Made by a program: the position numbers and the translations under genes | Notes under the pieces: model-generated | Database searches by the model: none | Seen by the model: the letters and a program-made list of their open reading frames with translations, nothing else | Told to the model about the DNA's origin: nothing | Shown here: piece after piece, positions 5,862 through 23,055 of the stretch | Layout of the letters: every line of letters starts with the position of its first letter | Position numbering within the stretch: position 1 is the first letter of the stretch | Source: a virus | DNA: 23,731 nucleotides | Reading direction: 5' to 3' (one strand) | Virus record (IMG/VR): IMGVR_UViG_3300020442_004062 | Span: 1-23,731 of that record

Positions 5862-8800
5862 ATGGCAGAAAGACCTATAGCAGAAGGCACTATTCGTTTT
5901 AGTCCAGACATGCGCTCGCTGGCGAATGTCGAAAAAAGCGTTAAAAAGGCCATAGGAAGAATCGAGAATATATCCGCTCGCGGTGGATTACTCTCGAAAA
6001 ACTACGTGCAGCCCTTGGGGCAAATAACTGGTGCTGCTGACGAATTCACCAAATCTCTAGAAGCCTCAAATGCTCGTGTTATCGCCTTCGGCGCATCAGC
6101 AGGAATCATTTACAACGTACAACGAGCCATAACAGCTAGTGTTAGCGCTGCTGTTGAATTGGAAAAAACTCTTGCTGATATCAACGTAATTTTAAACGAG
6201 ACCAATTCGGGTCTACAGCGTTTTTCAAACGAACTATTCAACATAGCAAAAGGCACGGGACAAGCCTTTAATGCTGTTAGCGAAGCTGCTCTTGAGTTTG
6301 CTCGTCAAGGTCTAGCGGTAGAAGAAACCCTCAAGCGTACCAGAGACGCAATGATTCTTGTGCGTTTGTCTGGCTTGGACGTTAAAAGTTCTGTTGAGTC
6401 GATTACTGCGACCTTAAACAGTTTTAACAAAACAGTTATTAACTCTACCGAGTTAGTTAACAAACTGGCAAATGTTGACGCGGCTTTTGCTGTTAGCTCC
6501 GCTGACCTTGCTGAAGCTATTCGTCGTGTGGGTAGTTCAGCGCAAGATTCAAACGTAAACATCGATCAGCTTATCGCGCTTGTTACCACTGCCCAACAAG
6601 TTACTGCTCGTGGCGGTTCTGTTATTGGTAACTCACTCAAAACGATTTTCACAAGACTGCAAAGACCTCAAGTAATTGCGGACCTTGAAGCTTTCGGTAT
6701 CGTAGTCAGAGATCAACAGCAGAATATGTTAAGCACAATGCAAGTGCTGCAAAACTTTGCTAATACATATGACCAACTTTCTCCTAGCGCAAAAGCAGTT
6801 ACCGCCGAGCTTGTTGGTGGTGTTTTCCAAATCAACGTGCTGAAAGCTGCATTGGGTGATTTGGGCAAACAATATTCAATTTACGATAGGGCTTTAAATG
6901 TCTCTCTAAGCTCAACAAACGAAGCCATAGCAAGAAACGAGTTACTAAACAAGACCCTATCTACTTTAATAAATGAAACCCTAGTAAACGTGCAAAAAGT
7001 AGGTGCGGCGTTTGCTAGTATGACAATCACGCCAACCTTAACAAACGTTTTGGAAAGCGTAAACAGCGCGGTTGAAAAATTAGAAGAAAAAGCCGCCGAT
7101 GGAGACTTGGGCGTAACCTTTGGTAAGGGTATCCTTCAGGGATTAAGTAATGTACTCAGCGGTCCAGCTTTGATAGCAATTGCTGGTGTTTTGGGCAAGC
7201 TAACTTTTAGTTTCTTTAAGTTTTCTTCAGAAGCTGTTAAGACTTTTGCGGGATTAAACAGTACGGCCAACCAGCAAAAAGACGTTCAAACTTTGATTCA
7301 AAACCTACTGATTAAAAACCCCTCCTTAATCCAAGCGGCAACTTCAAGCGCCGAAGGTTTGAAGATGGTTGAGCAAGAAATATTAAGAATTGTTCAAAAT
7401 AGAAATGTTGCTTTAAATGAATCTTCGATTCTTGCCGCTAAGATGTCCGCTAATTTAAGCGCGGCAGACTTCAAAAGCGTAAGAAGTATAAACGCTAGTA
7501 ATTCTAGCTCCTCTTCTGATACTAGTAGTGAGGGCTTTGTACCCACATTTTCAAATGGCTTTGTTCCTAATTACAACCGCAAAAACGAGCAAGCCGAAGT
7601 AATCGGCGCTTTGCAAGGTGGTTATATGCCAGGCAAGATCGACACAATGCAAATTCAAGGCATTGGCAGAGTTACTTACAATCAAGCTGAAGAAGTAAAA
7701 CAATTCCCAGGCATGGATCAGCCTGCGATTATTCCACCAAGAGAAAGTGAAGCGGGCAAAAATTACGAGAGAAGATTCAAAGCCGCGCATGGATTCAATC
7801 CTTATCACCAAGGAATGATTCCTAACTTCAATAAGGAAGAGGGAATAAGAGTCGTTGATGGTGACACTATCGAGGCTATGGCCACTCAAGCGAAAAGCTA
7901 TAGACTATCAAAAGTTGACGCTGCTGAGACGAGTGATCAAGTGCATGGAGCAGCAGCGACAAGGCTATTACAGAATTCAACTTTAAGTAAAAAAGAACGA
8001 TTTGAAAGAGCTATTGCAAAAGGCGAAAAAGCCGCTTACGGGCGGGGCTTGTTTGTTGATGAGCCGTTTCAAAGACTTTTAGTAAGGAGAGGACTTGGAG
8101 TCCCTGATTTAAGATACGCTAGTAAAGACTATCTTAGTAAAGATATTGAATTCGCAAGAGAGAGAGGACATGGAATATGGGGAGACAAAAGCAACCCAAA
8201 AGCTGAACAATATGACCGACAGGTTGGATTGGTGGCCAAAGAGAAAAACCTAGACTATCTAACCAAGGGAGGGTCTATCAGCACGATGGATCGGAAGAGA
8301 GCAAGAAGAATGGGTCTCGAAACGCGCCTTTCTCAACGCGCCCATCACCGCAACATGGCTCAAGGTTTTGTTCCCAATTTAATTACAGACGCCATATACG
8401 AAAAAAACCTTGAAAACAAAATCAAACAAGGCAAAATCTCAAGAGAAGAATTAGAAATAATAAGAAACGAAAAAATCGTTCCAAGTTTTGCTTATGAAGG
8501 TTTGCGTGATGAAGATTTAGGTAATGCATTTGTTAATGTAAACCCAAATAACAAAGCAAAAACAATCGACACTCATTTAACTGAAAAAGAAATCACCAAA
8601 CGTGTTGGTGGCAAAACTCTTATCAGAGGCCCAGAAGGAGAAACACTTATTTTTGGCGGTGACTTAGAAGGCAGAGCGGGCTCTATCACCGTTGGAGGCT
8701 TGAACGCCAGAAAGATCAAAAAAAGTAACGCAAAATTCGCGCCGCTACTCAATCAAATGCCAAACCTGTTCGACGGTTTAGCTTACCAGATCCAGGGTGC

Positions 8801-11800
8801 TATAGGCGCTAAGTTCGATCCAGGAAGCACAAGTGGCGCTGTGGCTGGTGTTAAGTTTGAAGAAGAATTTGCTGAAAAGTATGGACTGCCAGACGCTGGA
8901 GCCAAAAAAGGCAGTGACTTTGTTATTGCTGAAGAACTGGCGCGAGAGTTGGGCACTTCAAAACATTTACAGCTAAAACTTTCTGTGTTCGAGCGAAGCA
9001 AGCGTGATATTAAAAAAGTTGTGGATGTTGCAAGCGCGTTCAGCAACTACTTGGTTCACATGCTCACCAACAACATCAAAACCCAAGGACTTTCAAAATT
9101 AGTTGGCCCAGAAAGATACAGGCAGGCTATGGCCGTTATGAATCAAAACCCTGCTATGAAATCTGATTGGACAAAATACTTTGGCCAGAAGGGCATAATG
9201 GCTGACGGGTTTGTTCCGAACTTTGCACAAGACGCTCTTAAAGCCGCTATTGGCCGTGAGATGGCGGCTGGTTATTCCCGCAGTCAAGTCAAAGTTGGTT
9301 ACGATTCGAGACTCGCCGCAAGCGGTGGCATCGGAGTGTACAACGCGTCTGAGGGCTCGCTTGGTCGCGCTATCAACATGCACAGAGCTTCTGGAAAGAG
9401 CATGAAAGACTTGCAGACCCAAGGCGCGAGTCATGGGTTTGTACCAAATTATGCAACAGACTTTGGAGACTTTGTTGGCGGAGGAATGGGTTTAGCTTTA
9501 ATCGCTCCTGCGGTAATGAACATGGTATCCTCAATGAGAGAGATTAGGGATGAAAGAGATAAAGAGGCTAAATCTATTGCAAATCTTGAAGATAAATTCG
9601 CTAAAGCAGGTCAAGCCGCAGAAAACCACGCCGCTAATCTTCAAACTTTAGAGACCGCAGAAAGCGAAGCTTCAAATAATGTTAGCACATTAGCCCAAAG
9701 AAAAGAGCGAGCTCAAAGAGACTTGGCTGATCTTAAACCAGAAAGTTTTGAGGGTCTTGGGCCTAGCGGTAGTGGGGGTCGCTTTTCAGTCAACGAAGTC
9801 AAAGATTTTGGAGCAGGGCTCGGCCTTGAGAGTAGGAAAGGCAAAGCAGGATTTAAAGACTTAAGTAAGCCAGGTAGAGAAAATGAACTGAGCTATACAG
9901 AAGTTGAAGACCTACTAAAAAAAGAACACGCTGCGGAGCAGAGAAAGCAATTTAACGAAGAACAGGAAAGAAGACAGCAAATAATAGATGAGCTAGACTC
10001 TCAGTTAGAATCAGAAAGAGAAAGCGCAACCGAGGCTAAAGAAAAAAAAGAAGCCCTATCTAAAGAAACAAGCTCTAGAAAAAAAGCTTCAGACGAAGCT
10101 AAAGAAGAGCTAGAAAGCGCTAAGAAAAACAGAACAGGAAGATTCAGTAACGAAGCAATTTCCAAGGTGGGCCTAGGGTTATCATTTGCAGCGCCGATGG
10201 TAGCTGGTCAACTTTCTCAATTTGCTGGCAGCAACACTGGTGTATTTGGCAGAGCATCAATAAACGCCTTGGGTCAAGGCATCGGTACTGCTGGTATCAT
10301 GGGCACAGCAGGCGCTGAATTTGGCACAAAAATAACAAAAGACTTGCAAGAAGGAACTGGGTTTGTAGGTGAGACGTTGGGATTAAGCGCTGACAAAGGA
10401 GCAGGAAGAGCTCTTGGGGCGGTAGCAAGAGTCGCTGGCCCTGCTGCAATGGCAATAGGCATAGGTAAAGCCATAGACGACATGGGCAAAGCAATGGCCA
10501 AAGCCGAAATCCAAGAAAAAGCTGATAAGATAGGCGGAGAACTAGAGCTTTTAAGCACACAATTCAATAGAGTGCAGCAATCAGGCCAAGCATTCATGAC
10601 TAGCTTTGACAAGCTGCAACAAGCTTATGACAGCCCGCTAGACACAAACCCAGCAGACGTTCAAAGAGTTCAAGCTGACCTAGCAAAAGCCTTAAGTGAC
10701 GCTCCCGCAGAATTTAGAGAAAAAATAAGAGCAGCCGCTGGTGACGCAGACAAAATCAGAGAAGCTTTCAGCGAAATAAGCACTGAACTCCAAAGACAGC
10801 AGGCATCATTAAAGGCTGCTCAAGACTTGTTTACTATGCAAGCTGATATGGCTGCTGGAGGGGGCTTCTTTTCTCAGATTCTTGGAAGAGAAGACACCAC
10901 AATTTTTGAAAATGATGCTGAAGGCAAAAAAGCCCTTTCTGCCGCAAAAGCCACCGTAGCTGGCGGATTGGATAGGCCAGGAATAATCAAAGCTTTAGAG
11001 CAAGGCAGGGAACTTGATGTCGCTGGTAAAGACATGTCTGAGTTTTTAGGCGAAGATTTTAAAGAAGCTTTTGACGGATTAAAAGACGCTGGAGACCAAG
11101 AAAAAATAAGACAAATAATCAGAAAATTCTTTAAAGAAATCAAAGATGGAGCCGCAGACGCCGCCAAGGTAGCAAAAGATTTAGAGCGCAGACAAGCAAT
11201 CGAAAAAGCTTATCAAAAAGAACTTAAAAACTTAAACACACAATTAGACACATTTGTTTCTAGCTTGGGTAAAGTTGCAGCTAGAGTTGAAAACAATCTC
11301 AAGTCAGTGTCTAAGCTAGCCGATAACATCAAAGACTTTCAGTTAGACATGCAAAAAGCCCGATTCGAAGGGGCTAGAACATTACAGCAGCCATTCCTAA
11401 CAAAACAGGAGCAAGTGAGAAGCAACGCCGAGTCGCGTCAATTCGAAATAAGAGCCGATTCTATAAAACAAATGCGTGACGCAGTCAGAGACGGTAGCTT
11501 CAACGTCTTAAACGCTGTATCTGGACAATTCAACGAGGCTGCTGGCAAAGTACAGCAAGCTGCTACAGATTTATCAAAACCACAAAGCAGAGAAAACGTT
11601 GTAGCGTTCCAAAGAACCAACAGAGCATTAAATGGTCTTGCTCCAATTATTGAAAGCGCATTTAAAACATTTTCTCAAAACTCAGGAAAACTTGACGCTC
11701 TCATTGGCATAGAAAAACAAATAGAATCAGAACTAGTAAATGCAGGCTACACAAACCAGCAGGCCAACGCTATTGCTGAAAATGTTAAGCAAGAAATTTT

Positions 11801-14800
11801 ATCACAAAAAGACGCCACTGTTAATAAACTAAGCGAAATCGCTCAACAACAAGTTATGCAGTTAAAGCTGCAAGAAGAGCAAGCTTATTGGGCGCAAGAA
11901 GAAGCCAAGCTTCAAGCTAGGTTAAACTCTTTCGGCGGAGCTTCTGATTTCGGAAGAGGCGGTGCAACTAATTTATCTGGTAACTTTGACAGATTCCAAA
12001 CCGCATTAAGCTCTGCGATAGGCGCTCAGATTTCTAAGGGAATAATTGAATTAGGTAGAGCCAACTCTCAGATTCTTGATCTATTGTTAAACAACATGAA
12101 CATGGATTTCTTGAGAGACAATGTGGAGGGTCTCACGCCATTACTTGGGCCAGCTATCCAAGGAAGAGCCGCAGATATTCAATCTCAAATAAGCTTTGCT
12201 TCAAGGCTTGCTAACATACAAGGAGTAGACATTGATACTAGCGGTATTGACGCAACTCAAATAGCCACCGAACAAATCGCTTCGCAGCTTAAGCTAAAAG
12301 ACCTGCCTGATGATGTAGCCAAAATCAGAGAGAACACCGCTTTGCTTAATACTCTTATTGCTTCTCAAGCAAATGATATTGCAGCCGCAAATAGAGGGGC
12401 ATTCGAAGACGCTCTTAACGCTACTGGTCTTCACAATGTTGATCATAACACTAATCAAGGTATTTTAGCTACCCAAACTGCTGGTGTGAATTCAGTCCGT
12501 GTCGGTAACGCAATAGGCACAACAAACAGAGACGGCTTTAATGCGCTACTTGACCTTCAAAAGAACACGCTGCCAAGCGCTATAGGTCAGAACATTAATT
12601 CTAGTTTAAAACCGTTCTCTGACCGCTTAGAGAATCTTCAAACAATAATCAAGCAAATAACAGCTTTAACAGCGGGTAGAGATTTAGAAGTTAAACTGCT
12701 TGAAGCAAAAACAGAATTTAACGCCACTAGAAGTGGTGATCAAATAAAACAAATTGAAGACGCCACAGATTTTGTAGAACTCTCTAATATGGATCAGGAT
12801 TTTGGTGGCAGAGCCCGAATGAAAGCCGACGACAAGTTTGTACAGGCAATTGCAGACGCTGGCGGCGGAGACATGAGGACGGGCTTGGTAGATGTTCTTC
12901 GTAGAAGAGTTAGGGGTGCTGGTGGAAGTAAAGGCGCTAGAGAAGCTAACGAAGAATTGTTTCAAAGTTTCAGAAATGCCGCTAAAGCTAAAGGTCTCGA
13001 AGACGTATTCGACTTAAGGGTTGAAGGGGCTACTCGATTTCTTCAGACAGGATTCAAAAATCAATTAGTTAATGTTCCAGATATGGTTGGAAGGACCAGA
13101 GATGGAAAAATATTAGGCGAAGGAGAGCAGGGATTTAATGAATTAAGAAGTCAAAGAGGTTTTGGTTCAGCCGAGGGGCCATTATTGTTTGCCGAGTTTT
13201 TAACAGGTAGAAAAGATAAAATTTTAGCACCCGCTAGGGCAGCAGAAGCCAAATTAGCTACTGCTCAAGGCGAAATAAACGAATTCATAACAAGAACAGA
13301 GCAAGAGACTGGGGCTAAATTAAAACTAAGCCCCGAAGGCAAGCTAGTAAGAGTAGCAGAAAAAGTTGAGCCCCCAAAACCACCCGCCCCTATCCCTGTT
13401 CCGCCGCCAGTTGGAAAACCGCAAACTGCGGCAGCGGCAGCAGCACCAAAGAAGCCCATACAGTTTATCGAAGCAAAACCCGATGTTAGCGGAGAAGGAA
13501 TAGTAGGAGGCGGAGTCACGCCATTCTCTTCTTCCCGTAACGTAATGGTTGAAATATCTCAATTCAGAGAAAAATCAATAGAAGCACTAAAAGAAGAGTC
13601 TGAAAAACGAAGATTAGGGGTTGAAAAAGATAGAGAGGCTTTAACTCAATTAGATAATAATCTAGTATTAACAGAAGAAGGTAAAGCCAAACAAAAAGAA
13701 CAAATAAGAAAAAGATTAGAGTTTAATATTTTAGTAAAGCAAGGGCTCGATACTTTGGTTAAAAATAAAGAGGCCGAGCAAAAGAGAAGAGACCTCATTG
13801 AGAAAATGGTCGCTGAAACCAGAGCTCAAGTTGCCACAATGGAAGCCATTGCTGGCAACACACCAAAGCTAACTGAGTTGATGGAGTTGTTCCGAGACGT
13901 GCAAATGAAAATGCTGGACAAAAAAGCATTTAGTGCCGCCGAAGAAATTCTTAAATTAGGTGTTACTGGAGGAGACCCAGAGCAAATCAGAAACCAAATT
14001 CAAAGCCAATTTGAAACTGGAGTTAATGCTTTAACTCGCGTCGAAGGAGGGAACACAGAGCTAGCCAAACAAAGAGCCCAGAGAATTGCTCAAATGGGCC
14101 TAGATAGAAGGCAGGCTGGTTTAGATCAATTTGCTTTAGGCATAGGCTTAAGCGAAGGCTCCTCTCTTCAAGATATTCTTTCTTCTACTGGGTCAGACAC
14201 TGAGGTTGGCAAGCTACTTCAAGCTGGAGATATAGTTGGGGCCGCTGTGGCAGCAAATAAAAGTGGCGAAGCAAATATTGATATCGAAGAACTCAAAAAG
14301 AAAATGAATGAAGTCGGCTTCTCTACTGTTGAAGCCGCAAGAATAATTCAAAACTCTCAAATAGACAAAGAACTTAGGTCTCTAGGCAACTTCGTTGAAA
14401 AAGCAAAAGCTGGCTTGATAGACTCCGAAGCCATAAACGCAAAAGTCGAATCAACGTTTGCTAGATTTGTTAAAAACGGTAAAAATGAAGAAGCAGTTTT
14501 CCAGAAAATCGCAAAGCTAAGAGAAGCCCAAGTACAAAAAAGACAAGAAGAATTTGCTAGAGAAATCAAAGTATTAAAAGAAGCAAGAGACTTTGAGTTG
14601 AATCAGAAAATCCCGCAAGACCTTACCGAAGCTCTAACAAAAGCTCAAGAAGGCTTGTCAAGCTTCGGGGAAATCAATCAAGTTATAGGTGGCGCTATTC
14701 AAACGTTTATCGAGAAAGGCGGCGATTTAGACAAAATAGGAAAAACATTAGAGCAACTTCAATTAGAGAAGTCTTCCAAAGCAGCAGACGAATTCGCTCG

Positions 14801-16646
14801 CACGCTGGAACTAGTGAACGCAGGGCTTGCGTCAGCCTCTCTATTAGAGGAAAGAAGAAAACAATCATTTGATAGAATATTCCAAGAGAGAGCTCAACAA
14901 GGCAAGGGAACTTTTGGTGGAGCTAATCGCGCTGAATTGAGAATGCAAAAAGAAGAGTCAGAAGCAGCAATGGCCGCAGAGCTAGAAGCCAAGCTCAAAC
15001 TCTTAAATGATGCTAGAAAACATGAATTACTAACAGCCGATGAGCTAAGACAAAAATCAGCCGAGCTAGCTGACCAAATGGCCGCAACAGGAAATCTTGG
15101 TTTCAAAGGGTTTATTGGAGCTTTACAAGCAGAGCTTACGTACAGTCAAGCCGACTACCAAAAAGACATTCTTTCAATGGGCCGTGAATTCACACGAGAC
15201 TTCAAGAGCGGAATGGCTGGCGCATTTGGCGAGGCAATCAGAGGAACCAAGAAGCTCAAAGACGCCTTTAGCGATATGATGGCTAACATGGCCGACAAGC
15301 TGCTTGATAGGTCTTTGGATATGGCCACCAACTCATTCTTTAGTTTCATGGGGTTCAACAAGGGCGGTTACGTTAAAGGCTACAGTAGTGGCGGTATAGT
15401 GAAAGGCGGCTCTGGCATCAAAGACGACGTACCAGCTTACCTGAGTCGCGGCGAATACGTGATTCGCAAGAAAACTGTAAACGAATACGGTAAAGACTTT
15501 TTCGACTCTTTGAACTCTGCTAAAGTTGTAGCAGCGAATAAGGGAGGAATGATTGATAACACTAGACTAACCAAAGAAACCGCAGACAGAATCTTTGGCG
15601 GTAGTGCCAGAAACATGGCCGCGATTCAAGCCGAAAGACAAAAGCGTCAGTCAGCGCTACAAAGAGCGGGCATCGAAGCATTTGGCTACAAAGAATCTAC
15701 TGGAGACACCAAAAAAGACTGGCTCGGCAGAGACACTGGGCAAAAAGTTTTAGCAAACAGAGTAGGCTTTAGATTAGACTTTGGCAAGCCACTGAACGAA
15801 AAAAGAATTCAGGATATTCAAAGCGCTGTAAATGCTTACCCAGAAATCGGACCTTTCATTGACCCAGATATCTTTAAGCGTTCGACGGTTGAGATTGGCG
15901 GCGGCGCGACAAAGCTCAAGCTCAAAAACAGCTTCATCTATAACGAAACCAAGCGGCCCGATCAGGGCAGATTCGTCGCAGACCCAAGACTCAGCACTTT
16001 GGCTTTGAACGACGAGAACAACCCGCAAAACAAATACAAATTTGAAAAAGCTGACACGTTCTTTAACTATCAAAAAGACCGTTTAGATTACTACGCCGAA
16101 AAACAAAAAGAGCTAGAAGAATTCCAAGAGCAAAAAGCCAACAGAAGAAGAAGCTTCTTGTTTGGCGCAGGAGCACTATTGTTTGCTGGAGCACTCAAGG
16201 GCTTCAACAAGGGTGGCCCCAACAAAGAAGACGATATCCCAGCGCTGCTTACTGGTGGTGAGTACGTGGTCAGAAAGGGCATCGTAGATAAATACGGACT
16301 CAACTTCTTTGAGAATCTCAATAGAGGTAAAATCTCAGCGTTTAACAAGGGTGGTTACGTAGCCCCTGTGACTGGCGCAAGACCCACCACAGAATTTCAG
16401 GGAGGCTCACCAAGCACTTCGGTTGAAGGAATCAACACTACAAATAATATCAACATTTCTGTAAACGTAGATTCCACAGGAAACGTGACCACTCAAACTG
16501 ATCAAGGAGGCTCCAGAAACACAGACGCAGCGTCACAAGAAGAAACCAAGCAAATGGCAGACAGAATCAAGGGTGCTGTAATCGGAGTAATCGCAGAACA
16601 AAAGAGACCAGGCGGAATGCTCTACGGGACATCAGGAAGCGTTTAA
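5862..16646 (+). CDS. Giant tape measure protein with embedded nuclease-like modules
   Basis: This 3594-residue protein would set tail length and line the tube, to be ejected at infection. Residues about 70-400 match the TP901-type tape measure core (for example LEKTLADINVILNETN, then the VSSADLAEAIRRVGSSA region). A hydrophobic stretch follows at about 422-456. Residues 558-1198 hold six G-F-V-P-N-type motifs enclosing an SNase-like domain and a possible second nuclease. Long coiled coils run from about 1225 on, broken by Gly/Ala-rich hydrophobic segments (about 1432-1490 and 1515-1540) and a Pro/Ala linker (about 2504-2531). The C-terminus has two copies of an FNKGG...DD[VI]PA.L..GEYV.RK motif (from 3165 and 3448), common at tape measure C-termini. 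AGG at 5850 precedes the ATG by 9 nt. Arginine codons are CGT-rich at both ends and AGA-rich in the middle. Confidence 0.93.
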   Translation: MAERPIAEGTIRFSPDMRSLANVEKSVKKAIGRIENISARGGLLSKNYVQPLGQITGAADEFTKSLEASNARVIAFGASAGIIYNVQRAITASVSAAVELEKTLADINVILNETNSGLQRFSNELFNIAKGTGQAFNAVSEAALEFARQGLAVEETLKRTRDAMILVRLSGLDVKSSVESITATLNSFNKTVINSTELVNKLANVDAAFAVSSADLAEAIRRVGSSAQDSNVNIDQLIALVTTAQQVTARGGSVIGNSLKTIFTRLQRPQVIADLEAFGIVVRDQQQNMLSTMQVLQNFANTYDQLSPSAKAVTAELVGGVFQINVLKAALGDLGKQYSIYDRALNVSLSSTNEAIARNELLNKTLSTLINETLVNVQKVGAAFASMTITPTLTNVLESVNSAVEKLEEKAADGDLGVTFGKGILQGLSNVLSGPALIAIAGVLGKLTFSFFKFSSEAVKTFAGLNSTANQQKDVQTLIQNLLIKNPSLIQAATSSAEGLKMVEQEILRIVQNRNVALNESSILAAKMSANLSAADFKSVRSINASNSSSSSDTSSEGFVPTFSNGFVPNYNRKNEQAEVIGALQGGYMPGKIDTMQIQGIGRVTYNQAEEVKQFPGMDQPAIIPPRESEAGKNYERRFKAAHGFNPYHQGMIPNFNKEEGIRVVDGDTIEAMATQAKSYRLSKVDAAETSDQVHGAAATRLLQNSTLSKKERFERAIAKGEKAAYGRGLFVDEPFQRLLVRRGLGVPDLRYASKDYLSKDIEFARERGHGIWGDKSNPKAEQYDRQVGLVAKEKNLDYLTKGGSISTMDRKRARRMGLETRLSQRAHHRNMAQGFVPNLITDAIYEKNLENKIKQGKISREELEIIRNEKIVPSFAYEGLRDEDLGNAFVNVNPNNKAKTIDTHLTEKEITKRVGGKTLIRGPEGETLIFGGDLEGRAGSITVGGLNARKIKKSNAKFAPLLNQMPNLFDGLAYQIQGAIGAKFDPGSTSGAVAGVKFEEEFAEKYGLPDAGAKKGSDFVIAEELARELGTSKHLQLKLSVFERSKRDIKKVVDVASAFSNYLVHMLTNNIKTQGLSKLVGPERYRQAMAVMNQNPAMKSDWTKYFGQKGIMADGFVPNFAQDALKAAIGREMAAGYSRSQVKVGYDSRLAASGGIGVYNASEGSLGRAINMHRASGKSMKDLQTQGASHGFVPNYATDFGDFVGGGMGLALIAPAVMNMVSSMREIRDERDKEAKSIANLEDKFAKAGQAAENHAANLQTLETAESEASNNVSTLAQRKERAQRDLADLKPESFEGLGPSGSGGRFSVNEVKDFGAGLGLESRKGKAGFKDLSKPGRENELSYTEVEDLLKKEHAAEQRKQFNEEQERRQQIIDELDSQLESERESATEAKEKKEALSKETSSRKKASDEAKEELESAKKNRTGRFSNEAISKVGLGLSFAAPMVAGQLSQFAGSNTGVFGRASINALGQGIGTAGIMGTAGAEFGTKITKDLQEGTGFVGETLGLSADKGAGRALGAVARVAGPAAMAIGIGKAIDDMGKAMAKAEIQEKADKIGGELELLSTQFNRVQQSGQAFMTSFDKLQQAYDSPLDTNPADVQRVQADLAKALSDAPAEFREKIRAAAGDADKIREAFSEISTELQRQQASLKAAQDLFTMQADMAAGGGFFSQILGREDTTIFENDAEGKKALSAAKATVAGGLDRPGIIKALEQGRELDVAGKDMSEFLGEDFKEAFDGLKDAGDQEKIRQIIRKFFKEIKDGAADAAKVAKDLERRQAIEKAYQKELKNLNTQLDTFVSSLGKVAARVENNLKSVSKLADNIKDFQLDMQKARFEGARTLQQPFLTKQEQVRSNAESRQFEIRADSIKQMRDAVRDGSFNVLNAVSGQFNEAAGKVQQAATDLSKPQSRENVVAFQRTNRALNGLAPIIESAFKTFSQNSGKLDALIGIEKQIESELVNAGYTNQQANAIAENVKQEILSQKDATVNKLSEIAQQQVMQLKLQEEQAYWAQEEAKLQARLNSFGGASDFGRGGATNLSGNFDRFQTALSSAIGAQISKGIIELGRANSQILDLLLNNMNMDFLRDNVEGLTPLLGPAIQGRAADIQSQISFASRLANIQGVDIDTSGIDATQIATEQIASQLKLKDLPDDVAKIRENTALLNTLIASQANDIAAANRGAFEDALNATGLHNVDHNTNQGILATQTAGVNSVRVGNAIGTTNRDGFNALLDLQKNTLPSAIGQNINSSLKPFSDRLENLQTIIKQITALTAGRDLEVKLLEAKTEFNATRSGDQIKQIEDATDFVELSNMDQDFGGRARMKADDKFVQAIADAGGGDMRTGLVDVLRRRVRGAGGSKGAREANEELFQSFRNAAKAKGLEDVFDLRVEGATRFLQTGFKNQLVNVPDMVGRTRDGKILGEGEQGFNELRSQRGFGSAEGPLLFAEFLTGRKDKILAPARAAEAKLATAQGEINEFITRTEQETGAKLKLSPEGKLVRVAEKVEPPKPPAPIPVPPPVGKPQTAAAAAAPKKPIQFIEAKPDVSGEGIVGGGVTPFSSSRNVMVEISQFREKSIEALKEESEKRRLGVEKDREALTQLDNNLVLTEEGKAKQKEQIRKRLEFNILVKQGLDTLVKNKEAEQKRRDLIEKMVAETRAQVATMEAIAGNTPKLTELMELFRDVQMKMLDKKAFSAAEEILKLGVTGGDPEQIRNQIQSQFETGVNALTRVEGGNTELAKQRAQRIAQMGLDRRQAGLDQFALGIGLSEGSSLQDILSSTGSDTEVGKLLQAGDIVGAAVAANKSGEANIDIEELKKKMNEVGFSTVEAARIIQNSQIDKELRSLGNFVEKAKAGLIDSEAINAKVESTFARFVKNGKNEEAVFQKIAKLREAQVQKRQEEFAREIKVLKEARDFELNQKIPQDLTEALTKAQEGLSSFGEINQVIGGAIQTFIEKGGDLDKIGKTLEQLQLEKSSKAADEFARTLELVNAGLASASLLEERRKQSFDRIFQERAQQGKGTFGGANRAELRMQKEESEAAMAAELEAKLKLLNDARKHELLTADELRQKSAELADQMAATGNLGFKGFIGALQAELTYSQADYQKDILSMGREFTRDFKSGMAGAFGEAIRGTKKLKDAFSDMMANMADKLLDRSLDMATNSFFSFMGFNKGGYVKGYSSGGIVKGGSGIKDDVPAYLSRGEYVIRKKTVNEYGKDFFDSLNSAKVVAANKGGMIDNTRLTKETADRIFGGSARNMAAIQAERQKRQSALQRAGIEAFGYKESTGDTKKDWLGRDTGQKVLANRVGFRLDFGKPLNEKRIQDIQSAVNAYPEIGPFIDPDIFKRSTVEIGGGATKLKLKNSFIYNETKRPDQGRFVADPRLSTLALNDENNPQNKYKFEKADTFFNYQKDRLDYYAEKQKELEEFQEQKANRRRSFLFGAGALLFAGALKGFNKGGPNKEDDIPALLTGGEYVVRKGIVDKYGLNFFENLNRGKISAFNKGGYVAPVTGARPTTEFQGGSPSTSVEGINTTNNINISVNVDSTGNVTTQTDQGGSRNTDAASQEETKQMADRIKGAVIGVIAEQKRPGGMLYGTSGSV
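7842..8187 (+). other. SNase-like (thermonuclease) domain within the tape measure
   Basis: TMP residues 661-776 follow the staphylococcal nuclease pattern from end to end. IRVVDGDTIEAM carries D668 (equivalent to Asp21). YRLSKVDAAET carries R681 (Arg35), D686 (Asp40) and E689 (Glu43). AYGRGLF carries R728 (Arg87). The family's later L-V-x-x-G-L-x and A-R-x(4)-G-I-W signatures are also present (LLVRRGLGV and the final GIWGD). The usual D-x-P-E proline is replaced by alanine. The calcium-binding and catalytic residues are all kept, so activity is plausible. Family members cut DNA and RNA in a calcium-dependent way. It is bounded by motif copies at 651 and 835. Confidence 0.85.
8847..8990 (+). 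other. Possible PD-(D/E)XK-type nuclease core within the tape measure
   Basis: TMP residues 996-1043, in the module between motif copies 835 and 1116, contain FEEEF (E1000-E1002), then GSDF (D1019), then HLQLK (Q1037-x-K1039). The order E ... D ... Q-x-K with about 18 residues between D and Q resembles the PD-(D/E)XK fold in its Q-x-K variant, as found in Mrr-type endonucleases. The basic stretch after it (ERSKRDIKKV) would suit DNA contact. This is pattern reading on a very degenerate fold, so it is a suggestion only. Confidence 0.4.
15354..15516 (+). repeat. Tape measure C-terminal motif, copy 1
   Basis: TMP residues 3165 to about 3218 run FNKGG, a Gly/Ser-rich stretch, KDDVPAYLSRGEYVIRKK and EYGKDFFDSLN. 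The same order of elements returns at 16203 (copy 2). This motif is frequent near the C-terminus of tape measure proteins, the end that meets the tail tip. Codons here are CGC/CGT/GGC-rich compared with the AGA-rich middle of the gene. Confidence 0.75.
16203..16347 (+). repeat. Tape measure C-terminal motif, copy 2
   Basis: TMP residues 3448 to about 3495 run FNKGG, KEDDIPALLTGGEYVVRK, DKYGLNFFENLN and then FNKGGY again. It parallels copy 1 at 15354 with the same spacing of DD[VI]PA, GEYV and FF elements. A hydrophobic segment (FLFGAGALLFAGAL) lies just before it. Confidence 0.75.
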
Positions 16647-17392
16647 GAATAATAAGACATAGTGTTCGCAACAATATCTTGCTGGCTTAACACACTATTT
16701 TCTGGGTAAGGAAAAGAAGCCACAGCTTGTTCACCATTTTCAGGCGCTGCAATTGTAACTTTGGGCGCAAAATCATAACCACATCCAAAATCAGTAACTT
16801 CAATTTTTACTACTTTACCATCGGCTATTAAAGCTTTCGCCTTTGCGGCAAAACCAAAATGAGAACCATTTGGAGCATCGATAGTAACTTCTGGAGGAGA
16901 GGTATAGCCGCTACCAGTTTCCAGTATAGTAATTCCAAATATGTTAGAGAAAGGGTTGTATCTCAAGATATCGACATCACTTTCTATCTCTGAAAACTTA
17001 AGGTTATCTGGTAGGTCTCTAAGGAAACTTTTTAATTTGATTACATGGTTTTTGAGTTCAATATCATCATTTTCTATAGACACCATAAACGGTATGTCTA
17101 AAGATTTCAGGTAATTGTCTCTTTGTTTTTTTATTTCGGCGTAAGCTTTCTCTATAAAAGCATTTCTCATGTTCATACTAAGCTCGCCGTTTTCATTAAG
17201 CTCGTAGTGGGCCTTGTAGACGCTAGGAGAAACCGTGTCGTTTTTTAGGTAAAAGTATTTTTTAAAATTAGATTTATCTTCACCATAAACGTCGCTATAA
17301 GAACTCAGGGCGCTCTCTTCGGCGGTATCCAAGGGGAAACTCATAATCCTCTTGTTTCCATCATTTAAAAAAACTAGTAAATTATTGTTCAT
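16643..17392 (-). CDS. Tail-tip accessory protein, assembly-chaperone-like plus GSGYT repeats
   Basis: This 249-aa protein is the last gene of the left-pointing operon. I choose ATG at 17392 because it forms the classic ATGA overlap with the stop of J; a TTG two codons upstream (17398) is possible but less likely. Residues 80-130 (KKQRDNYLKSLDIP ... FLRDLPD) resemble the helical R-x(2)-L-x(2)-D ... L-R-x-[LI]-P pattern of tail-fibre assembly proteins. Residues 154-187 and 197-226 are two beta repeats, with GSGYTSPPEVTIDAP and GCGYDFAPKVTIAAP as matching cores. Such G-x-GY-x(2)-x-P-x-VTI repeats occur in phage tail and fibre proteins. Whether it stays in the virion or only helps fold J or a fibre is unknown. 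Its stop overlaps the tape measure stop on the other strand. Confidence 0.6.
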   Translation of the reverse strand: MNNNLLVFLNDGNKRIMSFPLDTAEESALSSYSDVYGEDKSNFKKYFYLKNDTVSPSVYKAHYELNENGELSMNMRNAFIEKAYAEIKKQRDNYLKSLDIPFMVSIENDDIELKNHVIKLKSFLRDLPDNLKFSEIESDVDILRYNPFSNIFGITILETGSGYTSPPEVTIDAPNGSHFGFAAKAKALIADGKVVKIEVTDFGCGYDFAPKVTIAAPENGEQAVASFPYPENSVLSQQDIVANTMSYYS

Positions 17393-20300
17393 GTGCAAGA
17401 AGGCGTGGTTGTGTTGTTTCTTGTGTTGGTTTCTTCGGTTGTGCCCATTACAAAAAATATGGCTCTAGAGAGGTAAGATTTATCAATCATATGTCCCATG
17501 TGAATTACAAAATGATCCGATTTCTTAGGTAAGCCTCCAAAACCTTGAACGAACCCTGCTGGGTGAAAGTTAAAATAGCCATCACTTGAGCCTATTTGTA
17601 CTTTGCCTACGTTAGCTTGATCTTCTTCTGCTTTGGCTAAAGCATCTGTAGCGCCTGCTTTCATATCTTCGGCCCATTGTGGGCTTACGTCGCTAGGAGA
17701 GAAAAATGTTTCCAAATTTTCTAGTAAAGTGTCGCTGTAATATTTTTCATTATTTACATTCATACCCATAACCCAATAAGGGTTGCTCCTTTGTTTCTCT
17801 AAATGCACTTTAAATCTTTTGAAACCTTTTGTGCCCTGCATAGCCGTTGACCAAGTGTCGTCGTTGTTTGTTTTAGCAATAGTTGTCGTACCGTTCGCTG
17901 CTCCTTTTAAATCAATTTGCGCGGTTGGCAGATTTGTATCATACTCTTCACCAATGCCGTTGCCTTGTGGTGTGTAATAATTACAAGCCATTGTAAATGC
18001 GCCTCCATTTGTATAACCTGCGTTTCTGGTAAAGTGACTCCCCACTCTAGGCTGACCTTGGCCATCAAAACCAATAATCGGAGCTTTTCTTGTACAATAG
18101 AATTGCAAGTAGCCTTTGTAGTCAGTTCCTCCGCCAGCCTCGCTTGCGTCATTAGTGATGTCTTCGACGCATTTAATGCCTCTACCATACCAGTTTCCGT
18201 CAACATCAATTTGAATCCAAGCTTTCCAGCCCTCACCAAGAAGATCAAGAGTATCTTGCGTGACTTTATCTATTTTGACGGCCTGAGAAAATCTATTTGT
18301 GAGTCTCTTGGTTAAATCAAATGTGGTCTCACCATTTGCAACAGCTAAAGATTCAACGTCAAGATCAAATTGGTCAACGTAAGCTACCATGAAATACGCT
18401 GAAATATTCTCGTTCGTTACGCTTTGAGTAGACCAAGTTGGATTAATTTCGAATACGTCTACATCAGCACTAATTCTTTTTGCTTCAATATCTGTTCTAC
18501 TTCCCTCTGTATAATCAGAATAACTGAATGAGCTTTCAGCGGTAAGAATAATAACCTCTTTTACGTCTGGTGGTCTATTTAAATTAAAAATCTTAATATG
18601 ATTATCTAAATCAATAAATCCATCACTGCTCGCAAAAGAGGGTACGCTTGGCTGTGGGTTTTCTATTTTTAAAACATCATGATCTGGAGCAGAGGTTTCT
18701 CCAGCTTCGTTCACGGCAAAAACCTTGAAGGACAAAGCTCTTTTTATGAGGTCGTAGTTATTAGAATGGTCAGCGAAGTTATTGGCCAGTGTATAATTGA
18801 AAGTTGTGATAGAGCCCTCGGAATCATCAGGCTTGTAGTTATTGACTGTTCTTATAACATTGCTTGGTCCATGATCGTCGTAGACTTCTACCTTGTATTG
18901 AAAGTCTAATGCTATGTTTGCTCCTTTGAACTGAGGCACTGAGGTTTTCCACTTTAGCCTAGCTGTTGAGTCAGTAAAGAAATCTACTTGACCATCAGTT
19001 GTCGGATCGCTTTCATTTGGATTTGCTCCACCAGCCGCATCATCAATGAGAGATAAGTGGGTTATTGCGATATCTCTAATCGGTGCAATATTATTTACGT
19101 TTATAGAAACTACCGTGGCAGAAGTACCATTTGACTGCCCAAGAACATTGTAAGCATAAGCTGATACATAATACTCGCCATTACTAGCTGGTATAAAATC
19201 AGAAGTTAATTCGTTGAGAGAGTAAATTTTAGCGGAAGAATCAAAATCTGTTTCGCTACTTGCCGAGCCTTTTTTGATATAAACTTGATAGTAAGAAACA
19301 GAAGATGCGTGGTCAGCGCTTTCTCCCAAACCTATTTCTACAATTTTGGTATTCGGCGCTCCTTCAGCAGTAAGCTGTCGTTGGGTCAGGGTGATCAAAC
19401 TTGGAGCAGCAGGAACTTGAAAGGTGACATTATTTACTGGCTTGGTGGCCTTATCTATTTCTCCATACTTAACCCTAGCATATTCAGCCGCTGAAATTTC
19501 GTACTTACCTTTGTCAGACTCGCTGATATTGATTACCCTATATTCTTGTTGCTGCCTTAAAGTTTCGAAAAATGTGTCGGCCTTATCGTTTACTCCTGTG
19601 GTGGCAATACTCCACAATGACTCACCATCAAAACCAGATGTTGTGTAAGCTGTTTCGTCTAGATTCCCACTTACAGTAATTACGCTTACGCCGCTATTTG
19701 TGTCATACGAAACGGTATTTGGGCTAATATCAAACGTCTGTATTTGCTTGTTTCTCATCAAGCTTGTTTCGGTAGAATTACCTAAATCAACCTGAGAGGT
19801 GTCGTAATAAAAAGAAGGAGTAGAGACTGTTAGCTGGTACTCTATCTTTCCGTCTAAATTGTCATTTGATACGAAATTATTACCATCCCAGCTTTTTCCA
19901 CCCTTTAGTTGGGAGTCTAAAGCGATCTTGAAAGTAGAGTCGCTAGTGCGCTCTAGAGCCCTTATTCTGCCTCCCCTGCGGGTCATAGACCTGTTGGAGT
20001 CAGAAACGCTGAAAACGTCTCCTGGGCGCAATATGGCCCCTTCTTGGCCGCATGTGAAAGAGACTGTTTCGGTCTCATTTGACTCTGTGGCAAGAATCCA
20101 TCGCCCAAGTCTTTGGGCTTGAGATTTGCTTGTGCAGCCAAACGCCGAAATCTCTTTTTCCTTGATCCCGTATTTTCTAATTGAATCTACGTCTTCGACA
20201 TATTCAACTGCTGGCTCGAACTTGTTATTTTTGTCATTGTATCTGACGATAGCGACTGTGTGGCGAACTTTAGCGCTGGTGCTAGAATATTTAAACTCAC

Positions 20301-21708
20301 CATTTTCGACGCTTGTATTGTTAAATTGAAATATTGGGTCTTTTAGAGAATCTTGAACCGCGAAAAGATTGCCTCCATTGTAATAAACAATACCTCTGAA
20401 AATACTTGCCATGTCATTGAGGACTTGATAAGCGTCTTCGCGGGATTGAATAATTATATTACAACTAAATCTAGGCTCTAAACCCCCATCAAAATCCTCT
20501 ACTAGCTCATCACAATATTGAGCAATTTCATAAAGAGTCCACTTATCTAAAGTCGAGGTGTCTACGTATTTACCTAAACCATATCGTTTGTTGGTAATTA
20601 AATCATAAAAACACCAAGCGGGATTATCAGTCCAGTGTTTGCCCTTTTCAGTTCGAGTGCCAATAGCGGAGCCATTTAAATCTCCGTATTCACCAACCGC
20701 TTCGGTAGAAAACTCACCGTTCCAAGAGCCATGATATGTTCTCGTTATGGGGTCGTAATTTTTAGGGATTTTAACCTTCATCAACCGCATGTCGTAAGCT
20801 CTCTCTGGTATGGAGGCAAAGTTTTCTGCGTCAAAGGTATTTTTTACTACATAAGATTTCGGGTAAATAAAAGAGTCTTGAATTTCTTCGACAATGTTAT
20901 CTACAAATATTTCATTTCTAGTGTCTGGGGTGGTGGGCTCTTCTTTGTCTTTGAAGATTCTAATCTCCCAGCCGATAAAATCGCCTCGGCCTTCTAAGTT
21001 TCTAGCCTTTTCCAACGGCAAGTCTAACTCAAAGCTTCTAGCGTAAGGTGAAGATAATGAGCCTTCTATTTTGACAATTCCACCAGTTTCGTATTGCGCT
21101 TTCGAGCCTAAAGCGTATTTAGCCCTAAAGTCAACTTTAACAGAAACATCTGAGTCTCTAAGTTTACCATAAGTTTCATTAGGATCGCTTGTTGTGCCTG
21201 GGTCTCTATCTATATTTCCTAGACTGCCTATTTTAAAGTTTATAATTGCTTTATTGCAGTATTTATTTCTTATGGTATAGTATCGATGATATTTGATGAA
21301 CTCAATCGTGCTACCCGTTTTTCTTTCTAGACCTCTAAGTTTTTCGTTGATTTGGACCAACCTTCTTGAGCTTAAACCTTCTTGAGATATTGTTTGCTGA
21401 TTGGTAACTAAATCAACCGCTCCGAAGTTAAACTTCTCAGACTCTTTATCGTAAACTGGGGTTTTGTTCCAATATATAGATGCTAATTCACCCGAAGGCT
21501 GATACAAAGAGTAGGAGTCAATTGTGATGCCTTTTGTAAAACCAATCGAGCCTTCTTGGTTAGAGCCATTATCTTTCCACTCTCTCCAAACTGGGCCATC
21601 AATTTCCCCTTCGCAAAGCAAGTCTACAACATAGCCAGTAGTGTTAGACATGAATCTAACACCTGTCTCGCCGTTAAAAAATACGCCTTGTACTTGATCG
21701 CTAGCCAT
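17389..21708 (-). CDS. J: Tail tip / host-specificity protein J
   Basis: This 1439-aa protein is the central tail-tip protein that contacts the host receptor; lambda J is about 1130 aa. Residues about 1-60 form the hub start (TGYVVDLLCEGEIDGPV). Residues about 355-570 carry the diagnostic J core: NPAWCFYDLITNKRYGLG, then EIAQYCDELV, EPRFSCNIII, NGGNLFAVQDS, ISAFGCTSKSQAQRLGRWIL and LRPGDVFSVSD. From about residue 770 there are strand-rich segments that read like fibronectin type III domains. The last 250 residues are Asn/Gly/Thr-rich with FNFHPAGFVQGFGGLPKKSD, likely the variable receptor-binding end. The start overlaps the I stop by one base (TAATG), and the stop overlaps the next gene as ATGA. 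The family call is firm; the receptor is unknown. Confidence 0.9.
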   Translation of the reverse strand: MASDQVQGVFFNGETGVRFMSNTTGYVVDLLCEGEIDGPVWREWKDNGSNQEGSIGFTKGITIDSYSLYQPSGELASIYWNKTPVYDKESEKFNFGAVDLVTNQQTISQEGLSSRRLVQINEKLRGLERKTGSTIEFIKYHRYYTIRNKYCNKAIINFKIGSLGNIDRDPGTTSDPNETYGKLRDSDVSVKVDFRAKYALGSKAQYETGGIVKIEGSLSSPYARSFELDLPLEKARNLEGRGDFIGWEIRIFKDKEEPTTPDTRNEIFVDNIVEEIQDSFIYPKSYVVKNTFDAENFASIPERAYDMRLMKVKIPKNYDPITRTYHGSWNGEFSTEAVGEYGDLNGSAIGTRTEKGKHWTDNPAWCFYDLITNKRYGLGKYVDTSTLDKWTLYEIAQYCDELVEDFDGGLEPRFSCNIIIQSREDAYQVLNDMASIFRGIVYYNGGNLFAVQDSLKDPIFQFNNTSVENGEFKYSSTSAKVRHTVAIVRYNDKNNKFEPAVEYVEDVDSIRKYGIKEKEISAFGCTSKSQAQRLGRWILATESNETETVSFTCGQEGAILRPGDVFSVSDSNRSMTRRGGRIRALERTSDSTFKIALDSQLKGGKSWDGNNFVSNDNLDGKIEYQLTVSTPSFYYDTSQVDLGNSTETSLMRNKQIQTFDISPNTVSYDTNSGVSVITVSGNLDETAYTTSGFDGESLWSIATTGVNDKADTFFETLRQQQEYRVINISESDKGKYEISAAEYARVKYGEIDKATKPVNNVTFQVPAAPSLITLTQRQLTAEGAPNTKIVEIGLGESADHASSVSYYQVYIKKGSASSETDFDSSAKIYSLNELTSDFIPASNGEYYVSAYAYNVLGQSNGTSATVVSINVNNIAPIRDIAITHLSLIDDAAGGANPNESDPTTDGQVDFFTDSTARLKWKTSVPQFKGANIALDFQYKVEVYDDHGPSNVIRTVNNYKPDDSEGSITTFNYTLANNFADHSNNYDLIKRALSFKVFAVNEAGETSAPDHDVLKIENPQPSVPSFASSDGFIDLDNHIKIFNLNRPPDVKEVIILTAESSFSYSDYTEGSRTDIEAKRISADVDVFEINPTWSTQSVTNENISAYFMVAYVDQFDLDVESLAVANGETTFDLTKRLTNRFSQAVKIDKVTQDTLDLLGEGWKAWIQIDVDGNWYGRGIKCVEDITNDASEAGGGTDYKGYLQFYCTRKAPIIGFDGQGQPRVGSHFTRNAGYTNGGAFTMACNYYTPQGNGIGEEYDTNLPTAQIDLKGAANGTTTIAKTNNDDTWSTAMQGTKGFKRFKVHLEKQRSNPYWVMGMNVNNEKYYSDTLLENLETFFSPSDVSPQWAEDMKAGATDALAKAEEDQANVGKVQIGSSDGYFNFHPAGFVQGFGGLPKKSDHFVIHMGHMIDKSYLSRAIFFVMGTTEETNTRNNTTTPSCT

Positions 21709-22352
21709 TAGTTGTAATACTCTCCGTTCTCAAAAATTTTCCTATCACCATGCTCGTGAGAATAAGCAATGGTAAGCGACCCAACCATCACACGCCCATA
21801 ACCAATAGGTACGGGGCCACCTGGGTTATAGGTGTTAAGCGGGCCATTGAAAAGGTAAGATTCTTTTTTGTTTGTTTGTTGAATCTCTCTAAAGTCTTCA
21901 AATTCAGGCGGCTCTGCCAGCAAGTTACTCATGCCAGTTAAAAACGAATAAGCGCCAATCATCATCATCATAGTGTTTTCCATTGCGTAGCCCATGCCAA
22001 ATAAAAGCCCGCCGCCAAGAACCATAGTTAAGTCTTTTGCGTCGTCTCCAGCGCCCTCTAGAACAGGTACGATATCTATAGTCTTGTATTTTTTGTTAAT
22101 AAATAACTCTGAATTTTTAATCTTCTCTATCTTGTCGATGTTTTCAGAAAAGAGCGGTTTTTCGTCTGTTAATACTTTGTATTTAATGTTTTGCTTTTCA
22201 TTTTCTACGATAGCTTTTGCAAGCTTTCGCTTTGATAGAATGTCCACCGCTCTCAATCCTTCAGCTACATTTTGGACTTTAAGCTCAAAGTCTTTTTGAC
22301 CTAGAGCTTCCGCTAGATTGCCGTGAAAAGTGATTTTAGTTAGCTTTGACAT
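21708..22352 (-). CDS. I: Tail assembly protein I (ubiquitin-like N-terminus)
   Basis: This 214-aa protein has the three-part layout of the lambda gpI family. Residues 1-100 look like a beta-grasp, ubiquitin-like domain (KLTKITFHGNLAEALG, DFELKVQNVAEGLRAV). Residues 108-145 are Gly/Met-rich and hydrophobic (LGGGLLFGMGYAMENT). The C-terminal part has the family signature YLFNGPLNTYNPGGPVPIGY followed by G-R-V-M-V-G-S. It acts with K and J during tail-tip assembly. The gene overlaps the end of K by 17 nt and the start of J by 1 nt. Its ATG has a weak AGG about 10 nt upstream, so coupling to K is likely. The pairing of a ubiquitin-like domain with the JAB peptidase of the neighbouring K gene is a known feature of lambda-type tails. 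Confidence 0.85.
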   Translation of the reverse strand: MSKLTKITFHGNLAEALGQKDFELKVQNVAEGLRAVDILSKRKLAKAIVENEKQNIKYKVLTDEKPLFSENIDKIEKIKNSELFINKKYKTIDIVPVLEGAGDDAKDLTMVLGGGLLFGMGYAMENTMMMMIGAYSFLTGMSNLLAEPPEFEDFREIQQTNKKESYLFNGPLNTYNPGGPVPIGYGRVMVGSLTIAYSHEHGDRKIFENGEYYN

Positions 22353-23055
22353 TTTTGTGCCTAATAACTTTCTTAATTAATTTTAAGTGCCTGCCTGTTA
22401 GTGATTCTATCTTAGAGTAGCTTTTTTCAGGTTGATGTAGAATAAGATCATTTCCTAAATACAAAGATATATGAGAACATGGCTTGTTTTTTCCATTACT
22501 AAACAGTATGCAGTCATACTTTTTTAATTCATCTACTTCATAAAACCCTTCGTTTTCGAAATGCTTTTCAAAAAGATCGCTTAAATAGCTTCTCCAGTTT
22601 TTGTCTCTGTAATGATGTCCTAAACTTACACCTAACTCCGCCTCGTAGAACGACCTCACCAAAGAATAACAGTCTGATTCGCCTATCTCAAACTTCCTGC
22701 CTATATAGTTGTTGAACTCACCGCAGGAAGGAGAAAATTGAATTAAAGAGTTATTTTCGGGGCAGTACATCACATAAGTAATATTGTGATTAATACTGTT
22801 GAACTTATCAAATTCAGAGAAATTTTGGTTGCCATTAGTGTGAGAATGATAGACAGCTACTATTTCGCCAAGGTTCGAGGCTTGCAGGTAATCTCTTGGG
22901 TTGACCCTAAATAAATCTTTTTCTAGAGAGTCGTTTTTAGTTGGAACGCAAATTAAATCGCCTTTATCGGACACAATCAAACCACAACACTCTTTAGGAA
23001 ACTCTTTTTCGTATTGAGCTTTAATCTGTTTTTTAATGTGGCCACTTAAAATCAA
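22336..23055 (-). CDS. K: Tail-tip peptidase K (JAB/JAMM + NlpC/P60)
   Basis: This 239-aa protein starts at TTG 23055, chosen because a perfect AAGGAGG lies 8 nt upstream and the TTG overlaps the L stop (TTGA). An ATG at 23136 would lie 85 nt inside L and add residues unlike the family. Domain 1 (about 1-115) is JAB/JAMM: E22 in ECCGLIV, then H70-S-H72-x7-S80-x2-D83, a complete zinc-site motif. Domain 2 (about 122-239) is NlpC/P60: C129 in GESDCYSLVRSF, H195 in CSHISLYLG and H207 as a possible third polar residue. The usual G-D before the central strand is replaced by Y-D-C. The JAB part may process another tail protein, and the NlpC/P60 part may cut peptidoglycan at infection; both roles come from family knowledge. 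Confidence 0.9.
   Translation of the reverse strand: MILSGHIKKQIKAQYEKEFPKECCGLIVSDKGDLICVPTKNDSLEKDLFRVNPRDYLQASNLGEIVAVYHSHTNGNQNFSEFDKFNSINHNITYVMYCPENNSLIQFSPSCGEFNNYIGRKFEIGESDCYSLVRSFYEAELGVSLGHHYRDKNWRSYLSDLFEKHFENEGFYEVDELKKYDCILFSNGKNKPCSHISLYLGNDLILHQPEKSYSKIESLTGRHLKLIKKVIRHKNVKAN

Follow-up and report, generated by a model that had tools for sequence, protein, structure and literature searches.

We find that the tape measure protein (TMP) of an uncultured tailed virus contains, at residues 659-776, a segment that is, by sequence comparison, a homologue of the staphylococcal nuclease (SNase) family. The segment is lodged in an array of modules punctuated by a recurring GF(V/I)PNF motif. 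The virus is represented by a metagenomic contig, IMGVR_UViG_3300020442_004062, and the window analyzed here is the whole record (23,731 bases). Its TMP gene (5862..16646, + strand) is a single ORF coding for 3594 aa without any Cys; residue numbers throughout follow the Met numbering. The product contains PhageMin_Tail (PF10145; E = 1.2e-24 in a Pfam scan) and matched tape-measure PHROGs in a PHROG search, and the gene is set among tail genes, so both domain content and setting are those of a TMP. Downstream, at 17389-23136 on the minus strand, are a gpJ-like tail-tip gene (Phage-tail_3) and a gene for a JAB plus NlpC/P60 protein; these and the TMP gene lie on opposite strands with their ends facing each other. 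A search of genome_contigs for a host via prophages confirmed none.

The SNase module spans about 7836..8189 (+), as delimited by Pfam, PDB, profile and relatives. An earlier note, made from the letters of the sequence, had reported an SNase-like domain with a complete active site at 7842-8187 (residues 661 to ~775). That interval does fall within the TMP ORF, and the identification holds. Scored alone against the Pfam SNase family (PF00565), the window module reached 18.1 bits (E = 0.0038), below the 21-bit cut-off. The modules of two related contigs from other metagenomes, L002 and L086 (L-numbers denote the related contigs or loci compared with the window), passed it with 29.4 and 35.0 bits. 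Moreover, a profile built from the three modules matched thermonuclease 3shl in the PDB with E = 9e-12, over SNase residues 15-137. Because both relatives and the joint profile match the family, the sub-threshold score of the window copy no longer gives reason for doubt. In a phmmer search of the PDB, the window module alone matched 3shl with E = 5.4e-5. The matches listed at E <= 10 comprise 37 distinct sequences, every one of which bears the name thermonuclease, staphylococcal nuclease or nuclease A. PHROG 452, 'endonuclease', was matched with E = 5.9e-4. The thermonuclease models of NCBIfam were matched far under their cut-offs, and PADLOC returned only weak SNc+LTD matches for the window. 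Separately, positions 1104-1242 (of 2317) of phrog_8809, a group of very long proteins without an assigned function, match the SNase module (window 7782-8258, E = 8.6e-5).

Alignment to thermonuclease places D668 (codon 7863..7865), R681 (7902..7904), D686 (7917..7919), E689 (7926..7928) and R728 (8043..8045), all on the + strand, at positions that we take to be Asp21, Arg35, Asp40, Glu43 and Arg87 in SNase numbering, the same assignment as the earlier note had made. D666 and Y726 are also present, as is the GIW ending (GHGIWGDK). Loss of active-site residues in homologues, which would speak against the nuclease assignment, was not what we saw: all five equivalents are invariant in 3/3 modules, the close L002 copy and the distant L086 copy included. 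The modules do depart from the family in the vicinity of the last Arg. In the alignment, the beta-5 strand after R728 is short by about 3 to 5 residues in all three. The usual T-D-(K/R) before Y-G-R is replaced by K-A-A in the window and L002 modules, and the L086 module has K-S-A followed by Y-F-R in place of T-D-(K/R)-Y-G-R. When the TMP modules were placed with stand-alone SNases in a tree of 9 rows, all three grouped together with support of 92/91, the other branches being weak or long; judged from these alignments, they look like one TMP-borne subfamily. AlphaFold2, run on the three-sequence alignment, gave a poor model (pLDDT 47.7). Nearly all of the 50 rows shown when this model was submitted to Foldseek were SNase or SND1 SNase domains, none of them significant (best E 0.27, TM-scores <=0.34).

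The earlier note had treated the SNase as a single odd domain. The domain is there, but the comparisons below make it a member of a motif-bounded array whose several modules are exchangeable. With a profile of the TMP N-terminus we matched at least 518 related stretches, and the best 80 of these, together with L003, L086 and the window, make up the 83 TMPs compared here. Counting the pattern G(F/L/Y/M)(V/I/M)P(N/S/T/G)(F/L/Y), we obtained 318 copies in the 83 TMPs, whereas 20 shuffles averaged 0.6. At least one copy occurs in 80/83 TMPs, and the remaining three ORFs are just 420-500 aa long. The consensus, (A/K)-(S/A)-x-G-F-(I/V)-P-N-F-A, is sited at module borders, and the usual layout is N-domain, motif, ~82 aa, motif, ~270-aa core module, motif, ~75-aa module, motif. 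For some relatives, absences from the array mean little because their contigs stop inside it.

In the window TMP, a motif scan located GFVPTF (residues 558-563; 7533..7550, +) and GFVPNY (566-571; 7557..7574, +) at the start of the array, followed by GMIPNF (651-656; 7812..7829, +) directly ahead of the SNase module, which comes after the 82-aa stretch. GFVPNL (835-840; 8364..8381, +) lies past the SNase module. Next is a module at residues 878-1115 (8493..9206, +) which has no assigned function and which, by sequence comparison, is 74% identical in L002. It is followed by GFVPNF (1116-1121; 9207..9224, +), then by a ~75-aa module recognized by layout comparison (1122-1191; 9225..9434, +), again with no assigned function, and the array ends with GFVPNY (1192-1197; 9435..9452, +). 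Possible readings of the GF(V/I)PNF motif are a cleavage, docking or chaperone site.

SNase modules are uncommon in these proteins. They were found in 3/83 clade TMPs, namely those of the window, L002 and L086, each with the same layout in one open frame; a home-built SNase profile picked out 2 of 82 TMPs, and L086 brings the total to 3/83. The L002 TMP is a close relative, with an N-terminus 79% identical to that of the window in the best segment and an SNase module 74% identical. The L086 TMP is distant (39% identity over residues 48-787), and its SNase module is 43% identical to the window module. The L086 module recurs at 99% identity in L088 and L089, which were matched by the module stretch alone. 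Two scans of viral_contigs with SNase alignments confirmed 4 contigs, implying that the SNase-TMP fusion is rare at that sensitivity. The window SNase module alone confirmed no close relative in viral_contigs and found none among isolate phages at E <= 0.01. Among isolate phages, 5 records matched the L002 module at E <= 10, the best of them at E = 0.1, and 4 records matched the L086 module at E <= 1. In two of the latter, at 6e-8 and 1e-5, the matched genes encode hypothetical proteins 193 and 239 aa long that stand alone. The L086 module also matched 791 plasmid records at E <= 1e-4, and the 20 listed are stand-alone Acinetobacter thermonucleases.

Several comparisons support the exchange of modules between relatives in clade TMPs, as read from their sequences. 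L093, otherwise close to the window, has the window's next module (79%) and almost the same 75-aa module. What precedes them, in the part where the L093 contig begins, is non-SNase sequence with a faint core-module resemblance (E = 0.05), and in that position L006 and L095 have a nucleotidyltransferase-like module. We also compared the window with L002 region by region, asking how often identical residues use the same codon. The proportion was 60/86 for the SNase module versus 167/402 for the N-domain (P = 2.5e-6), 88/173 for the next module (P = 0.005) and 24/60 for the 75-aa module (P = 6e-4); the difference from the preceding stretch (36/62) was not significant (P = 0.16). For the same pair, dN/dS was 0.27 in the SNase module, in keeping with amino-acid conservation, and 0.14 in the preceding stretch. 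The lower values of 0.10 for the next module and 0.06 for the C-terminus come with dS near saturation in both, and in the N-domain dS was saturated and the ratio not computable. We read the SNase module as a probably younger, selected cassette, with an exchanged tract that may take in the preceding stretch. GC3 of the module is 0.28 versus 0.36, with lower values in 11/174 windows, a difference that is not decisive.

Other modules occupy the arrays of relatives. When 15 arrays chosen as unusual were scanned whole, a family scored above its cut-off in 4: SNase in L002 and L086, HIGH_NTase1_ass in L006 (34.2 vs the Pfam cut-off of 26.7, covering 41/205 profile positions) and an acetyltransferase in L084 (31.9 vs 20.7). 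Most array modules have no family assigned. The ParB_N score in the L036 array, 17.3, is under the cut-off of 26.3. An HExxH sequence occurs in 3/83 TMPs, each time within the array, and the window TMP has none. HAD-like modules (L071, L084) and peptidase-like modules are readings by eye. In L084, a P-loop-like stretch and then the acetyltransferase domain lie inside the TMP at 12995-14059; in L003, the segment 16262-16897 of the TMP was judged by eye, without Pfam support, to be a protein kinase-like module. Within the window TMP, the SNase is the sole module with a family assigned by Pfam and PDB. The module at 878-1115 had no PDB match of note and no relation to the clade core module (hhalign probability 0.3). 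For the ~270-aa core module itself (L009:8161-8973), the predicted model is confident (pLDDT 88.5), and aligned copies show a conserved G-F-E, D and D-x-K pattern (35/45 non-redundant modules). The core module had no match of note by sequence, and Foldseek searches with the model gave 0 hits at E <= 0.001 in both PDB and BFVD; the best VIA Z was 4.5, over 46 residues. From its residue pattern, this module is a candidate PD-(D/E)XK nuclease. As predicted, it is possibly an unusual enzyme fold, a missing match not being in itself proof of a new one.

Cysteine is almost absent from these proteins. The 76 TMPs longer than 1500 aa contain 7 Cys in 184,554 residues, and their array regions contain 0 in 39,712, where 235 would be expected. 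By comparison, 403 other ATG-started ORFs of at least 250 aa from the same loci have 1068 Cys in 180,430 residues (0.59%). One caveat here is that these counts are not independent, as some loci are near copies. Six cultured-phage TMPs, among them lambda H, SPBc2 YomI and TM4 gp17 (annotated as an endolysin, which we take to be the TMP), likewise contain 0 Cys, with one of the six cut at the stretch end. Given that these cultured-phage TMPs are also Cys-free, absence of Cys is a property of TMPs, one that inserted modules obey. The SNase module itself proves little in this regard because S. aureus SNase has no Cys, and it is the other modules that carry weight: eight array modules examined, including the acetyltransferase and the kinase-like module, have 0 Cys. 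The simplest cause may be shared storage and transit, either unfolded or through an oxidizing space.

What could an SNase do in a tape measure? The TMP would be kept in the tail tube and pushed out ahead of the DNA. Once inside the cell under attack, the SNase module would cut RNA or the DNA of the host, of a rival or of a plasmid, and such cutting would help the phage take over. We put at close to an even chance the reading that the SNase-family module serves as the exchangeable payload of a polyvalent-protein-like TMP and is released at ejection. Points against it are the rarity of SNase in the clade, the altered surroundings of the last Arg, a dN/dS above that of the next module and the C-terminus, and the many array modules to which no family is assigned. 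More tentatively, the same idea may extend across the clade. On that reading the TMP is a Cys-free payload rail bearing effectors, SNase included, between GF(V/I)PNF motifs; recombination would swap these effectors, which would pass along the tail ahead of the DNA and be set free in the host, and the motif would act as a cleavage or docking site. As a rule, enzymes of the SNase family are secreted and depend on calcium, and the low level of free calcium in the cytosol is a problem for an SNase working there. On the other hand, this requirement could itself silence the module during TMP synthesis in the producing cell. It is also possible, as the earlier note proposed, that location in the tail shields the phage genome. 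Delivery of the array to the cytoplasm is favoured because the modules of relatives, if active, need acetyl-CoA or nucleotide.

In the available text of the papers concerned, TMPs are described as exiting the tail ahead of DNA (PMC8718954), the lambda TMP as touching inner-membrane entry proteins during injection (PMC13190303), and TMPs as believed to aid DNA passage over the inner membrane (PMC8718954, PMC13190303). Hydrophobic stretches at residues 427-449 and 1201-1222 flank the window array (558-1192), and because the array sits between them, its membrane side is not fixed. The SNase might leave the host chromosome alone and be active outside the cytoplasm, on extracellular or envelope-associated DNA or in the periplasm with its abundant Ca2+. 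Both the position between hydrophobic stretches and the usual secretion and calcium dependence of the family fit such a location. So does a TMP that is first out of the tail, as the available part of PMC8718954 has it. Modules of relatives, such as the acetyltransferase, would find no substrate there, and on balance we consider an extracytoplasmic role unlikely, albeit worth keeping in view. A separate NlpC/P60 protein is encoded in the same genome, so the SNase module would not have to take on cell-wall work.

The deviations around the last Arg raise another question, namely whether the module is an OB-fold with weak activity or none, which binds nucleic acid or simply forms a folded spacer in the TMP. 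The short beta-5 strand and the changed context of the last Arg, seen in all three modules, are consistent with this, as is the lack of a confident structure model (pLDDT 47.7). Yet all three lineages, at 43-74% identity, retain the five active-site residues, which a binder or a spacer would not need; we regard this reading, like the extracytoplasmic one, as unlikely but worth keeping in view. Action late in the producing cell, for instance on host DNA, with the tail location incidental, would take advantage of the many copies of TMP that an infected cell makes. A free cytosolic nuclease would, however, endanger the phage's own DNA, and the array stays Cys-free like the rest of the TMP, suggesting selection on the tail-borne form. 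These points make late action very improbable. As for an assembly artefact or chance resemblance, the window is a metagenomic contig and its match alone is sub-threshold, but the same one-frame layout recurs in L002 (74%) and L086 (43%), from other metagenomes, and the three-sequence profile reaches E = 9e-12. This explanation is largely refuted and deserves hardly any credence.

How does the fusion compare with known systems? To the SNase/thermonuclease family (PF00565) the module is linked by a profile match over most of the domain and by the five active-site residues; it differs in its place inside a TMP, in the short beta-5 and in the replaced T-D-(K/R) before Y-G-R. A tail-borne SNase has a precedent in BtI1, a B. 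thuringiensis prophage element whose baseplate hub protein carries an SNase domain (PMC2147016). There too the SNase is fused to a tail protein and swapped for other domains in relatives, but the hub is T4 gp27-like with an N-terminal SNase and is not a TMP, and the available text describes no motif-bounded array. Polyvalent proteins resemble the TMPs of this clade in carrying several exchangeable enzyme-like modules, HExxH modules in some members among them, on one long protein thought to enter with phage DNA (PMC5512222); in the window TMP, the SNase is the one such module with an assigned family. The available text of that paper, from which the word 'tape' is absent, does not present them as tape measures. 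The window TMP for its part has the repeated GF(V/I)PNF motif and contains no HExxH to suggest the self-processing metallopeptidase domain that is common, though not universal, in polyvalent proteins. Tme and Sle1 of contractile injection systems likewise combine a TMP-like protein with a variable functional domain and tail-tube ejection; they belong to bacterial injection systems, not phages, and a nuclease goes unmentioned in the available text (PMC13277306). MuF polymorphic toxins also place toxin or nuclease domains on a virion protein with proposed entry alongside DNA, but according to the available text they are portal-associated, with a C-terminal toxin and usually a small ORF next (PMC5576092). 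Pfam matches of the full window TMP include no MuF domain.

Each ingredient therefore has precedent, and it is the combination that appears new: an SNase in a TMP, as part of an exchangeable array with motif borders, did not turn up among the matches listed from the open PMC literature. Among those matches, no paper on a TMP with an SNase domain stood out and there was none on Cys-free tape measures; a search of the open PMC literature for the string GFVPNF found no paper. In their available text, a paper on large aquatic phages reports no TMP (PMC12619734), and a survey of mosaicism among phage proteins was unable to establish that TMPs had recently become mosaic (PMC10684548). Set against that survey, the array supplies a tangible example of modules being exchanged in TMPs. 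If tape measures do carry swappable enzymes into the host, effectors would arrive with every virion at the moment of infection, before phage genes are read, and their carrier would be the first protein out of the tail. The module borders, marked by the motif, give a handle on the role of TMPs inside the host beyond measuring the tail.

SNase genes were also seen next to tape measures or elsewhere in such genomes. The L003 record has a stand-alone SNase gene outside its TMP. In L092 (Anoxybacillus phage A403), a stand-alone SNase-like gene (315-1475) lies 14 bases past the annotated tail tape measure gene.
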